Source: Helicobacteraceae bacterium
Lineage (GTDB): Bacteria; Campylobacterota; Campylobacteria; Campylobacterales; SZUA-545
Direction: 5' to 3'
Assembly (NCBI GenBank): GCA_031268655.1
Contig: JAIRWX010000001.1
Location: 1-37,681 of the forward strand
Length of the DNA: 37,681 bases
Of the stretch, positions 2,975 through 6,982 are shown piece after piece. Positions within the stretch are counted from its first letter, which is position 1, and every line of letters begins with the position of its first letter. The notes below the pieces were generated by a model that had not been told where the DNA came from, searched no databases, and worked only from the letters and a program-made list of their open reading frames with translations. The position numbers and the translations under genes were made by a program.

Positions 2975-4132
2975 ATGAGGATAGGCAAAATCGTCGGGCT
3001 GGCGGCTCTTACAAGCGCGCCGCTATTTGCGGAGAGTTTTGCGGAGGCGATCAGAAATGGCGACTGGGGCGGAGACGCTTATATTTACAACAGATACGCG
3101 GACTGTTACAACAAAAACGGCGCGTGTAATTACTACAACCCAAACGACGACGGCTCCGGCTACGGGCAGGGATCGTTTAATCTCTACTATTCAAGCGCGC
3201 CGCTTAACGGCTTTGGCTTTTCGGTCGGCGAGCGCTTTAATTACCTGATATGGCAGAGATCAAAAAGAGATTTCAGCCGCAATCAAAACGCCGAGCTGCT
3301 GCTGCACACCGCCAATGTCGGCTATACAAGCGAACATTTTGACGCGATCGTAGGTCGTCAACAGATCGCTCTGGAGTGGGTAAGCGATTATCATCAGGCG
3401 GCGGCGGGTATCGTCAAGCCAATGTCGGGATTGGCGCTTTTTTTGGGGTATACGCAAAAGAAAGCCGTGGCGGACGGCGATGACTGGCTTGTAAAGTTCG
3501 CGGAGGTCAACGAGGACAAGGGCGTTTATGTCGCCGATCTGAAATTTACCGGCTTAGAGGGATTGACGCTCAACCCCTTTTACTACAACGCGCCCAATCT
3601 GGCAAGCTGGTACGGCGGCAGAATAGATTACGACGCGAAGTTCGACGACGCCTCTTTCGGCGCGAGCGCCTTATATACGGCAAGCGACGAGGAAGAAGGC
3701 GGCGACGGAGCGTTTAGCCTAGGCGAACTTCGCGCCGGATTTGGCGGACTGAACGTAAGGCTTGGATACGCCAAAGCCGATAAAGACGGAACGGGATCGA
3801 TTACCTCTATCGGGGACTGCGCGGATCCCTTCTGGAACGGCGATATTTTTTATAAACCCGACGTTAGAACCCTTTACGCGAGAGGGGTTTACATATATGA
3901 CGCATGGAGATTTAGCGCGCTGTTTGGCGACGGGGAAGGCGATGGTCTGCCAAAGGTACAAGAGCTAAACCTGAACGTTGGATATACGTTCAAAGACGCG
4001 TTCGACAACTTTAGCGATTCGCTTCGTCTTAGCCTCGTGTTCGTCAATGTCAGCGTCGATAATCATACCTCGTCGCTAAGAGATCACAGCAAATACGCTA
4101 GCTATATCGTCTATAACTTTAGCGGGGAGTAG
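2975..4132 (+). CDS. OprD-like outer-membrane porin
   Basis: A 385-aa secreted protein with a Sec signal peptide (MRIGKIVGLAALTSAPLFA, cut after FA-E). The mature part is rich in aromatic residues and glycine, with alternating strands such as RFNYLIWQ and SLRLSLVFVNV, the pattern of a beta-barrel. The early segment with paired cysteines (ADCYNKNGACNYYN) and the 'IVGRQQIALEW' strand resemble the Opr-family/major outer-membrane porins of Campylobacterota. It ends in YNFSGE rather than a terminal Phe, which is slightly atypical. GGGGGAG ends five bases before the ATG. It stands alone between metG and the oxidase operon. The substrate cannot be told from sequence. Confidence 0.8.
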   Translation: MRIGKIVGLAALTSAPLFAESFAEAIRNGDWGGDAYIYNRYADCYNKNGACNYYNPNDDGSGYGQGSFNLYYSSAPLNGFGFSVGERFNYLIWQRSKRDFSRNQNAELLLHTANVGYTSEHFDAIVGRQQIALEWVSDYHQAAAGIVKPMSGLALFLGYTQKKAVADGDDWLVKFAEVNEDKGVYVADLKFTGLEGLTLNPFYYNAPNLASWYGGRIDYDAKFDDASFGASALYTASDEEEGGDGAFSLGELRAGFGGLNVRLGYAKADKDGTGSITSIGDCADPFWNGDIFYKPDVRTLYARGVYIYDAWRFSALFGDGEGDGLPKVQELNLNVGYTFKDAFDNFSDSLRLSLVFVNVSVDNHTSSLRDHSKYASYIVYNFSGE

Positions 4133-4414: not shown

Positions 4415-4912
4415 TTATTTACCGCTTTTGCGAACGGCGGTAACCTCTATCTCGACAAGCCACGCGGGATTTGCCAGCGCGACTACCTGAAAGACCGATC
4501 TTGACGGCAGGTTCGGCTGATTTTTGCCGCCAAAAAACTTGACGTAACCTCTCATAAATCCGTCAAAATCCATCTTATCGGAGTTCTTTGGATCGCCGAC
4601 TAGAAAAACCTGCATTTTGACGACGTCGCCCGTCTCCATACCGAGCGATTTCAAACTCTTCTCGATGCTTTGCAGCGCGCTGATCGTTTGCGCTTCGGTA
4701 TCGCCGTACGCTTCCCGCGATCCTTTCGGAGCGCTTTTGTTGATAACGGTTGGAACCGCGCCGCTAAAATGAACTACCGCGCTGGACGCCGGAATCTCCG
4801 TCGCCATAGCGATCGGAAAGTCCGATCCGGGCGTTTTGTGCCGAATCGCTGCGGCGCACAAAACGTTTGCCGCAATTGCTAAACACATTAAAACCCTAAA
4901 CAATACGCTCAT
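4415..4912 (-). CDS. exported RidA-family (YjgF/UK114) imine/enamine deaminase
   Basis: RidA proteins hydrolyse reactive enamines and imines to keto compounds and ammonia. This 165-aa copy keeps the family core: PSRSVFQVVAL carries the Arg that holds the substrate carboxylate, and WLVEIEVTAV carries the conserved Glu. Unlike the usual cytosolic ~130-aa RidA it starts with an export signal (MSVLFRVLMCLAIAANVLCA), so it should act in the periplasm. The start at 4912 is chosen because AAGGAGG lies eight bases upstream; a longer reading would add 30 residues in front of the signal peptide. It is the last gene of the operon, 25 bases after the cytochrome, and would act on the imine product of the upstream oxidase (inferred). 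Confidence 0.88.
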   Translation of the reverse strand: MSVLFRVLMCLAIAANVLCAAAIRHKTPGSDFPIAMATEIPASSAVVHFSGAVPTVINKSAPKGSREAYGDTEAQTISALQSIEKSLKSLGMETGDVVKMQVFLVGDPKNSDKMDFDGFMRGYVKFFGGKNQPNLPSRSVFQVVALANPAWLVEIEVTAVRKSGK

Positions 4913-4937
4913 AAACGTCGCCTCCTTTTTCAAAAAA

Positions 4938-5345
4938 TTACTTAGGTATGTCCGCCGTTCTGACGGCGCCCTTGTAATTGTTGCCGAAGCTGGTTCGCAC
5001 ATAGTTTACGACCTCCACGATCTGATCGTCGGTTAGATACTCTCTAAACCCCGGCATTCCATTTAAGCCGTTTGTAACCGTTTTCAGCGTAGTTTCGGCG
5101 GACATAAGCCTGACGTTGCCCGCCAACGACGGGTAGAAACCCGCGCCGCTGGCGCCCTTTCCGTCCGCCATGTGGCAGCCTTGACAGCTTGCTCTGTACA
5201 GCGCCTCGCCCTTTTTTGCGTCAAAACGTCCGGAATCGGAAGATATGGATAACTGCGGATCGCCGTCGGCAAAAAGCGAAGAGATAAAAAAGTTCCCCGC
5301 CAGCAATAGCGAGCCGATCAACGCGAAATTACCTTTACTTTGCAC
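4938..5345 (-). CDS. periplasmic monohaem c-type cytochrome (class I)
   Basis: A 135-aa small electron carrier. The signal peptide spans residues 1-26 (GNFALIGSLLLAGNFFISS, cut near LFA-D). A single haem site CQGCH lies at residues 54-58, and NGMPGF with Met97 is the likely sixth ligand. The C-terminal helix (LTDDQIVEVVNYVRTSF) is typical of class I cytochromes c. The start is a GTG at 5345 preceded by AAAGGAG with five-base spacing; reading further upstream gives no sensible signal peptide. It lies 14 bases after the flavin oxidase gene and 25 before the RidA-like gene, suggesting that it takes electrons from the oxidase flavin and passes them to the respiratory chain (inferred). Confidence 0.92.
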   Translation of the reverse strand: MQSKGNFALIGSLLLAGNFFISSLFADGDPQLSISSDSGRFDAKKGEALYRASCQGCHMADGKGASGAGFYPSLAGNVRLMSAETTLKTVTNGLNGMPGFREYLTDDQIVEVVNYVRTSFGNNYKGAVRTADIPK

Positions 5346-5359
5346 ATTAACTCCTTTTG

Positions 5360-6982
5360 TCAATTTTTGGCGACAATGTTCGCGTGCAAGCGCTTGATCG
5401 CGTCCTGCGCCGATAGTACCGCGCCCTCCAGCCATGCCGGAATATAAGAGGCGTGTTCGCCCGCCAGCGCAATTCGACCGTCGATCTGGCACAGATCTTT
5501 GTAGCGCTTTTCGCGCGTCTCGTCAGTCCAGATACCGTGACAGCCGTTTGTCCACGGGACGCGATGCCATCCGACGGCGATACCGTTTTCAAAATGATCG
5601 CGGTATTGCGGATGTATCAACGCGCCGTATTTCAGCGCGGCTTCTATTCGCTCGGCGGGAGTCATCGAGGTAAATTCGTAGGCGTTTCTGCCCCAGATAT
5701 ACGCGCCAAGCAGAACGCCCTTGCCCTGCCTGCCGTAGTCGGTATTTGGGTAACCGATCAGCGAAATTGGCGCGTCGGTATAGCTGATGCCTCCGTAAAT
5801 GTGTTCGTCCTCCCAGAAACGGCGCTTAAACTGCAGCCCGATCTTGACCGAAGCCTCGTAAGGCACGGCGCGAATCGCCTCCCGCATCGGCGCGCTTACG
5901 TTGAGCGGGATTTGGCTGAGAATCGACAGCGGGATCGTGCATACGCAGTAATCGGCGCGTTCTGTCAAAGCGCTTCCCGGGCGGGCGCTATTCTCGTAAG
6001 AGACCGACACGCCATTTTCGTCCTGCGCAATCGAAGTAACGCGCGCGTTAAATTTGATCAAGTCGTCCACCTGTTTGGCGAAGGCTTGCGCGATCATATC
6101 CATGCCGCCTACGGGCTGAAAGATAGAGCTTTGAAATTCATGAAACTGACCTGTGATAATCCTTCTCCAGAATCTGGATTTGATCAGCTCTTTGCCCTCT
6201 AATATATCGTTGGAAGCCGCCATAAGCGGCATCAGTCCGCCGCCCGGCCACACTTCAAAACCGCGCCGTTCCGCGCTCTCGATCGATTTTCCGTACGAGC
6301 CGTCTTCGCGCAACGCTCCCCAGCTGCGAAGAGCGGACGTTAACGCCTCGCGATCGGCTTTATTCAACGTCTTGTTCAAAGCGCCCTGATTTACCGACTT
6401 GCTTAATAGCTCGGCTATATGACCTTGAAAGTCGGCTTGCACTTTGCGGTATCTTTGCGGTTTGCCGCCATAGGCTCTGGTTGAGTGGACAAACGCATTG
6501 TAATTGACTTGAATAAACGGCTCAAGCGAAACGCCAAAACTTTTGCAGTAACTAAGTATCGCAAAATGGTTGTACGGAATGCGCCAAGGACCGGGGTTAA
6601 TATATAGCCCCCTGTCAAACTCGCACTTTTGCGTCGCGCCGCCCAGCTCCGTATAAACGTCGCCGCCGCGTATGGTCCAGCATCGTCCCCCGGCTTTTGG
6701 ACGGTATTCGAGTATTTTCACCGAGTATCCCGCGTTGCGTAGTTCGTAAGCCGCCGTCATACCCGCTATGCCCGCTCCCAGCACTAAAACGCTTACGCCT
6801 TTGGGAGCGCCTCTTAGCCGCTCGAACCGCTCGCTCTCCTTAAACGGCGACTGCGCCGCAAAACCCAAATAAGCCATGGCTTGATACATTGCCGCCGCGC
6901 CCGCCGTTTTGCCGATCACGCTTAACGCCTGTCGTCTTGTTATGCCAAGACAATCGCTCGCCTCCATAGAACAATGTTTCAT
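5360..6982 (-). CDS. Tat-exported flavin monoamine / L-amino-acid oxidase family protein
   Basis: An FAD enzyme of the monoamine oxidase/L-amino-acid oxidase superfamily, oxidising an amine or amino acid to an imine. The 540-aa product begins with a twin-arginine signal (TRRQALSVIG at 15-24, then an Ala-rich stretch). The dinucleotide fold GAGIAG is at 69-74, with Glu92 for ribose and the GGRC loop at 98-101. PGPWRIPYNH resembles the 'RxP' substrate loop of L-amino-acid oxidases. LAGEHASYIPAWLEGAVLSA near the C-terminus is the second FAD motif. The start at 6982 is favoured by AAGGAGG five bases upstream; an ATG nine codons earlier lacks a ribosome site. With a cytochrome c next in the operon it may be a dehydrogenase rather than an O2-using oxidase. 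The substrate is unknown. Confidence 0.9.
   Translation of the reverse strand: MKHCSMEASDCLGITRRQALSVIGKTAGAAAMYQAMAYLGFAAQSPFKESERFERLRGAPKGVSVLVLGAGIAGMTAAYELRNAGYSVKILEYRPKAGGRCWTIRGGDVYTELGGATQKCEFDRGLYINPGPWRIPYNHFAILSYCKSFGVSLEPFIQVNYNAFVHSTRAYGGKPQRYRKVQADFQGHIAELLSKSVNQGALNKTLNKADREALTSALRSWGALREDGSYGKSIESAERRGFEVWPGGGLMPLMAASNDILEGKELIKSRFWRRIITGQFHEFQSSIFQPVGGMDMIAQAFAKQVDDLIKFNARVTSIAQDENGVSVSYENSARPGSALTERADYCVCTIPLSILSQIPLNVSAPMREAIRAVPYEASVKIGLQFKRRFWEDEHIYGGISYTDAPISLIGYPNTDYGRQGKGVLLGAYIWGRNAYEFTSMTPAERIEAALKYGALIHPQYRDHFENGIAVGWHRVPWTNGCHGIWTDETREKRYKDLCQIDGRIALAGEHASYIPAWLEGAVLSAQDAIKRLHANIVAKN

Follow-up and report, generated by a model that had tools for sequence, protein, structure and literature searches.

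A three-gene operon in a Helicobacteraceae genome (Campylobacterota) probably encodes a periplasmic L-amino acid dehydrogenase, a cytochrome c of its own that serves as electron acceptor, and an imine-hydrolysing protein of the Rid3 type. Judged from the gene sequences, this is the best available reading, and we assign it, taken as a whole, a probability of about 0.7. The operon lies within a 37,681-nucleotide stretch of contig JAIRWX010000001.1 (assembly GCA_031268655.1), hereafter referred to as the window. Most likely, the trio lets a gut-type bacterium take electrons from amino acids outside the inner membrane and pass them into respiration. The three genes, the roles proposed for them and part of the physiology were already published in 2016 for the lao-cccA-ridA operon of Gluconacetobacter diazotrophicus PAL5 (PMC5053998), and the window operon adds a further member. 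New in the present analysis are the gene-by-gene homology to the PAL5 operon, the narrowed substrate class, the Rid3 assignment and the recognition of the cytochrome as the more constant partner.

Organization of the operon and identity of its products

The trio spans positions 4415-6982 of the minus strand, with 14 bases between the flavoprotein and cytochrome genes and 25 bases between the cytochrome and Rid genes (Table 1), the span and gaps being those reported in a preliminary description made from the DNA letters alone. Each gene is preceded by a clear Shine-Dalgarno sequence: AAGGAGG for the flavoprotein and Rid genes, and AAAGGAG for the cytochrome gene. The number of promoter- and terminator-like matches at the locus did not exceed that found in shuffled sequences. 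The arrangement is not a chance one: all seven Campylobacterota members, counting the window, retain it, and it recurs across Pseudomonadota.

Table 1. Positions of the trio genes and of porin-type genes adjoining the trio in the window and in related Campylobacterota loci
Feature	Position	Strand	Basis
L-amino acid oxidase-type flavoprotein (FAO superfamily), Tat-signalled, 540 aa; predicted L-amino acid dehydrogenase	5360..6982	-	Pfam, PDB, fold, residues
Class I monohaem cytochrome c, Sec-signalled, 135 aa, GTG start; predicted electron acceptor	4938..5345	-	Pfam, haem motif, adjacency
Rid3-type imine deaminase (predicted), Sec-signalled, 165 aa	4415..4912	-	Pfam, PDB matches, residues
Opr-family porin, convergent neighbour of the trio, candidate member	2975..4132	+	NCBIfam NF033922 (7.4e-67)
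Porin-type ORF beside the trio, locus L003	30-1244
Porin-type ORF beside the trio, locus L013	605-1318
Porin-type ORF beside the trio, locus L014	132-1319
Porin-type ORF beside the trio, locus L020	3608-4798

The gene identities proposed earlier were confirmed with Pfam and NCBIfam, Pfam assigning the products to the families Amino_oxidase (1.2e-60), Cytochrome_CBB3/Cytochrom_C (2.2e-16) and Ribonuc_L-PSP (1.1e-14). Signal peptides were assigned on the basis of motif and hydropathy, and the export routes suggested previously (Tat for the flavoprotein, Sec for the cytochrome and Rid) were upheld. In the flavoprotein, residues 15-20 read TRRQAL and precede a hydrophobic stretch, i.e. a Tat-type leader, while the cytochrome and Rid proteins each begin with a hydrophobic Sec-type leader. 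The cytochrome contains a single CxxCH motif (CQGCH at positions 54-58, C54-H58), and its candidate haem ligand, Met97, is invariant in eight sequences.

In the PDB, the sequence that best matches the flavoprotein, over nearly its full length, is 2jae (8e-85), an L-amino acid oxidase from Rhodococcus opacus, and the next matches are ancestral and snake-venom L-amino acid oxidases. A structural model was obtained with AlphaFold2 from a 29-sequence input (mean pLDDT 80.6, the first 41 residues being of low confidence). In a fold search this model matched 2jb1/2jae with TM scores of 0.82/0.92, and the structural alignment gave 36% identity to the R. opacus enzyme. Ranks 1-43 of the fold search consist entirely of L-amino acid, L-lysine and L-glutamate oxidases. 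NicA2, the flavoenzyme on which the preliminary description had based its analogy, appeared neither among the best 60 PDB sequence matches nor among the best 50 fold matches and is thereby ruled out as the nearest relative. Many flavoproteins of the compared set are annotated simply as flavin monoamine oxidases.

Three residues of the flavoprotein, Arg134, Tyr428 and Lys380, do not vary among 29 sequences. The first two align with Arg84 and Tyr371 of the R. opacus enzyme, which we take to be the pair that binds the substrate carboxylate, and Lys380 is the lysine beside flavin N5. By sequence, fold and the Arg/Tyr pair, the flavoprotein belongs with the R. opacus-type L-amino acid oxidases. The cytochrome and Rid genes that accompany the window enzyme may distinguish it from the R. 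opacus oxidase, for which our data give no evidence of such a pairing. The R. opacus-type matches, together with the invariant carboxylate pair, favour an L-amino acid over a plain amine as the predicted substrate. Since the nearest relative is the R. opacus enzyme and NicA2 is not near, the "amine/amino-acid" substrate of the preliminary description can be narrowed to its L-amino acid part.

Rid3 proteins are defined as those that keep the catalytic Arg and Glu of RidA and have Ile in place of Tyr, and their genes were previously noted to cluster at times with those of FAD amine oxidases (PMC4433059). The two best PDB matches of the window Rid are Rid3 proteins, PSPTO3006 (6.8e-32) and PFL1385 (8.8e-28) (PDB 9bka, 9bkc). 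Like them, it has the catalytic Arg and Glu, and Ile instead of the RidA Tyr; these residues (Arg138, Glu154/156 and Ile34) do not vary across 24 sequences. On these sequence features the window protein is of the Rid3 type, with the catalytic Arg retained. Both PSPTO_3006 and PFL_1385 hydrolyse imines generated by an L-amino acid oxidase in vitro (PMC5619798). They were studied as isolated proteins, without a flavoenzyme of their own. Should the cytochrome be the acceptor of the flavoprotein, the exported Rid3 would join the few Rid proteins whose partner enzyme in vivo is clear.

Export of a Rid protein had been considered unusual, but a hydrophobic leader is present on nearly all Rid copies in the compared GTDB set, and a periplasmic pair has been described in Chlamydomonas. 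That pair, LAO1/LAO2(RidA), resembles the window trio in combining an extracytoplasmic L-amino acid oxidase with a Rid protein; it differs in being eukaryotic, in producing H2O2 and in that no cytochrome partner is described (PMC10805672). In the window's genome (assembly 90% complete), no Rid-family gene other than that of the exported Rid3 was found. Relatives of this genome contain a second Rid copy that better matches the RidA model, a difference that may reflect an assembly gap.

A homologous operon in G. diazotrophicus and distribution of the trio

The preliminary description knew of no characterised system with exactly this trio. Such a system is nevertheless on record: the lao-cccA-ridA operon (GDI2456-GDI2454) of the sugarcane bacterium G. 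diazotrophicus PAL5 is homologous to the window operon gene by gene. Tn5 insertions in lao abolish the formation of tryptophan-derived auxin, with loss of indole-3-acetic acid, and transcripts of all three operon genes fall in the lao mutant; from these insertions the operon was implicated in the conversion of tryptophan to indole-3-pyruvate and auxin. A Tat signal was noted on the PAL5 flavoprotein, and the cytochrome was proposed to act as electron carrier and RidA in imine hydrolysis. The authors also cited ccm mutants that form auxin at 5% of the wild-type level (PMC5053998). The mechanism suggested earlier for the window operon stands as the best reading, although it was in print in 2016 and its novelty does not hold. 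The same gene cluster was noted again together with the similar Chlamydomonas L-amino acid oxidase/RidA pair (PMC10805672).

To locate the PAL5 operon, one published primer was searched for in 398 genomes and was present in two. In one of these two (L105, a chromosome of 3,944,163 bases), all six published RT-qPCR primers sit within the three homologous genes. Comparison by blastp of the window and PAL5 proteins gave 52% identity over 520 aa for the flavoproteins, 43% over 122 aa for the cytochromes and 51% over 136 aa for the Rid proteins. The two operons thus share gene families, i.e. L-amino acid oxidase, cytochrome c and Rid, in identical order on one strand, as well as a Tat-type signal on the flavoprotein. 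They differ in their hosts, PAL5 being an alphaproteobacterial plant endophyte with an auxin phenotype and the window host a Campylobacterota genome without a known phenotype.

A sample of 397 Campylobacterota genomes contained the flavoprotein in 4 cases, counting that of the window; one more member of the same family and two GTDB loci carry it as well. The trio is patchy in this phylum and therefore dispensable there, a point against the proposed reading. All seven Campylobacterota flavoprotein loci contain the complete trio, and in a quick tree these members form one clade with full support. Flavoprotein relatives were detected in 28 of 399 sampled Pseudomonadota genomes, which makes the system of general but moderate interest.

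Gene order was compared in the 80 closest GTDB loci; as these were the best-scoring ones, the sample is biased to close relatives. The RR motif is present in 76 of the 80 flavoproteins. A cytochrome gene lies directly downstream of the flavoprotein gene in 79 of the loci, and in 46 a Rid gene also follows, completing the trio; Rid was not found in the other 34, a few of which have short downstream flanks. At least 13 gains or losses of Rid were counted on the quick tree. Rid as a defining part of the system was ruled out on these grounds.

Three layouts occur around the Pseudomonadota relatives: flavoprotein-cytochrome-Rid, flavoprotein-cytochrome, and flavoprotein-Rid without a cytochrome. 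The last was observed in a more distant clade (loci L126, L131, L132 and L133), where a gene for a Tat-signalled flavoprotein stands directly beside the Rid gene and no cytochrome gene is nearby. In more distant relatives, then, either Rid or the cytochrome can be absent. The 79/80 and 46/80 counts, taken with this variety of layouts, indicate that the cytochrome is nearly constant in close relatives and Rid is optional.

Two plasmid-borne arrangements also differ from the window layout. On a Metabacillus plasmid (L017, 4001-7264), flavoprotein, Rid, tatA and tatC genes stand in a row and a cytochrome gene is absent; tatA and tatC apparently form a Tat pair of their own for export of this enzyme. 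On a Deinococcus radiodurans plasmid (L016, 3188-5572), a gene for a longer cytochrome c is located upstream of the flavoprotein gene, without Rid.

Electron acceptor and physiological role

Flavoenzymes that pass electrons to a cytochrome c are known from NicA2/Pnao-CycN and related FAO-CytC dehydrogenases, in which, as in the window, a Tat-signalled FAO and a Sec-signalled monohaem cytochrome c are encoded in one operon. NicA2 and Pnao act on amines of the nicotine pathway and probably belong to another part of the superfamily than the window flavoprotein (PMC9396064, PMC12224317). In stopped-flow experiments of 2025, many bacterial FAOs that carry a Tat signal and are encoded next to a cytochrome c proved far more reactive towards this cytochrome than towards O2, so that these two features predict cytochrome-using dehydrogenases in the NicA2-related clades (PMC12224317). 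Both features are present in the window operon, as judged from motif and hydropathy; the rule was tested on NicA2-related clades and not on the L-amino acid oxidase clade. L-amino acid oxidases and Rid go unmentioned in the 2025 study, in contrast to the window operon with its Rid gene (PMC12224317).

In the mechanism that we propose, the Tat-exported flavoprotein would take a hydride from an L-amino acid and release the 2-imino acid. The co-encoded periplasmic cytochrome c would then reoxidise the reduced FAD, accepting single electrons in turn, and the electrons would go on to a cbb3 oxidase in place of H2O2 formation. The exported Rid3 would accelerate the hydrolysis that turns the 2-imino acid into ammonia and the 2-oxo acid.

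For the R. opacus homologue, use of O2 has been described, which speaks against the dehydrogenase reading. The window flavoprotein may likewise be a true periplasmic oxidase that reduces O2 to H2O2, with Rid hydrolysing the imine and the cytochrome acting elsewhere, e.g. in peroxide removal or in a general electron pool. The nearest solved relatives are indeed named oxidases, Lys380 next to flavin N5 is kept, and some relatives combine a Tat signal with Rid and lack a cytochrome. Nevertheless, we regard this alternative as unlikely: the cytochrome gene adjoins in 79 of the 80 close loci, more constantly than Rid; such adjacency predicts a slow O2 reaction according to the 2025 kinetics (PMC12224317); and no other role readily suggests itself for a lone small cytochrome c encoded next to an oxidase. 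The flavin-N5 lysine was dropped as a predictor, as it occurs in both oxidases and dehydrogenases, and the O2 reactivity of FAOs is not predictable from sequence alone (PMC12224317). The combination of Tat-signalled flavoprotein and Rid without a cytochrome in L126 and L131-L133 suggests that electrons may go to O2 or to a different acceptor in some relatives, and this clade provides a natural contrast set for oxidase versus dehydrogenase function.

There is a slim chance that the trio functions chiefly in making a secreted product, like its counterpart in G. diazotrophicus, where tryptophan is converted via indole-3-pyruvate to auxin-like compounds acting on a host or on neighbours. This idea draws on the homology to the PAL5 operon, whose Tn5 mutants lose indole-3-acetic acid (PMC5053998). 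However, no sign of an indole pathway was seen in the window, the link to auxin requires later steps, the nearest relatives are Campylobacteraceae MAGs and not plant endophytes, and specificity for Trp is not evident from the sequence. An amine substrate, as for NicA2 or Pnao, is very improbable despite the shared superfamily and Tat-plus-cytochrome layout, given that L-amino acid oxidases account for all of the best matches by sequence and by fold, that NicA2 is absent from the top 60 and top 50 of these, respectively, and that the carboxylate-binding Arg/Tyr pair is invariant.

If the cytochrome is the acceptor, as the dehydrogenase reading predicts, an entire group of L-amino acid oxidases presumed to make peroxide would in fact be dehydrogenases of respiration. 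We see an even chance that the Gram-negative R. opacus-type clade consists largely of cytochrome c-coupled L-amino acid dehydrogenases with an optional exported Rid3. This would represent a further origin of dehydrogenases outside the NicA2-related clades, and periplasmic amino-acid respiration in many Pseudomonadota and some Campylobacterota.

Genome context and a neighbouring porin gene

Family searches of the window's genome identified TatC, one Cytochrom_C_asm protein (within an open frame of 1057 aa) and a single COX1 gene with ccoO- and ccoQ-like genes after it, which together (ccoNOQ-like) make up a cbb3-type oxidase. These genes are consistent with the predicted export, haem attachment and microaerobic respiration of the trio system. 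Operation under low oxygen, in particular, would fit a genome whose only such oxidase is of the cbb3 type.

Five of the seven loci in Campylobacterota have a porin-type gene next to the trio. It is usually divergent and located upstream of the trio, while the window copy is convergent and downstream. The substrate could enter through this porin.
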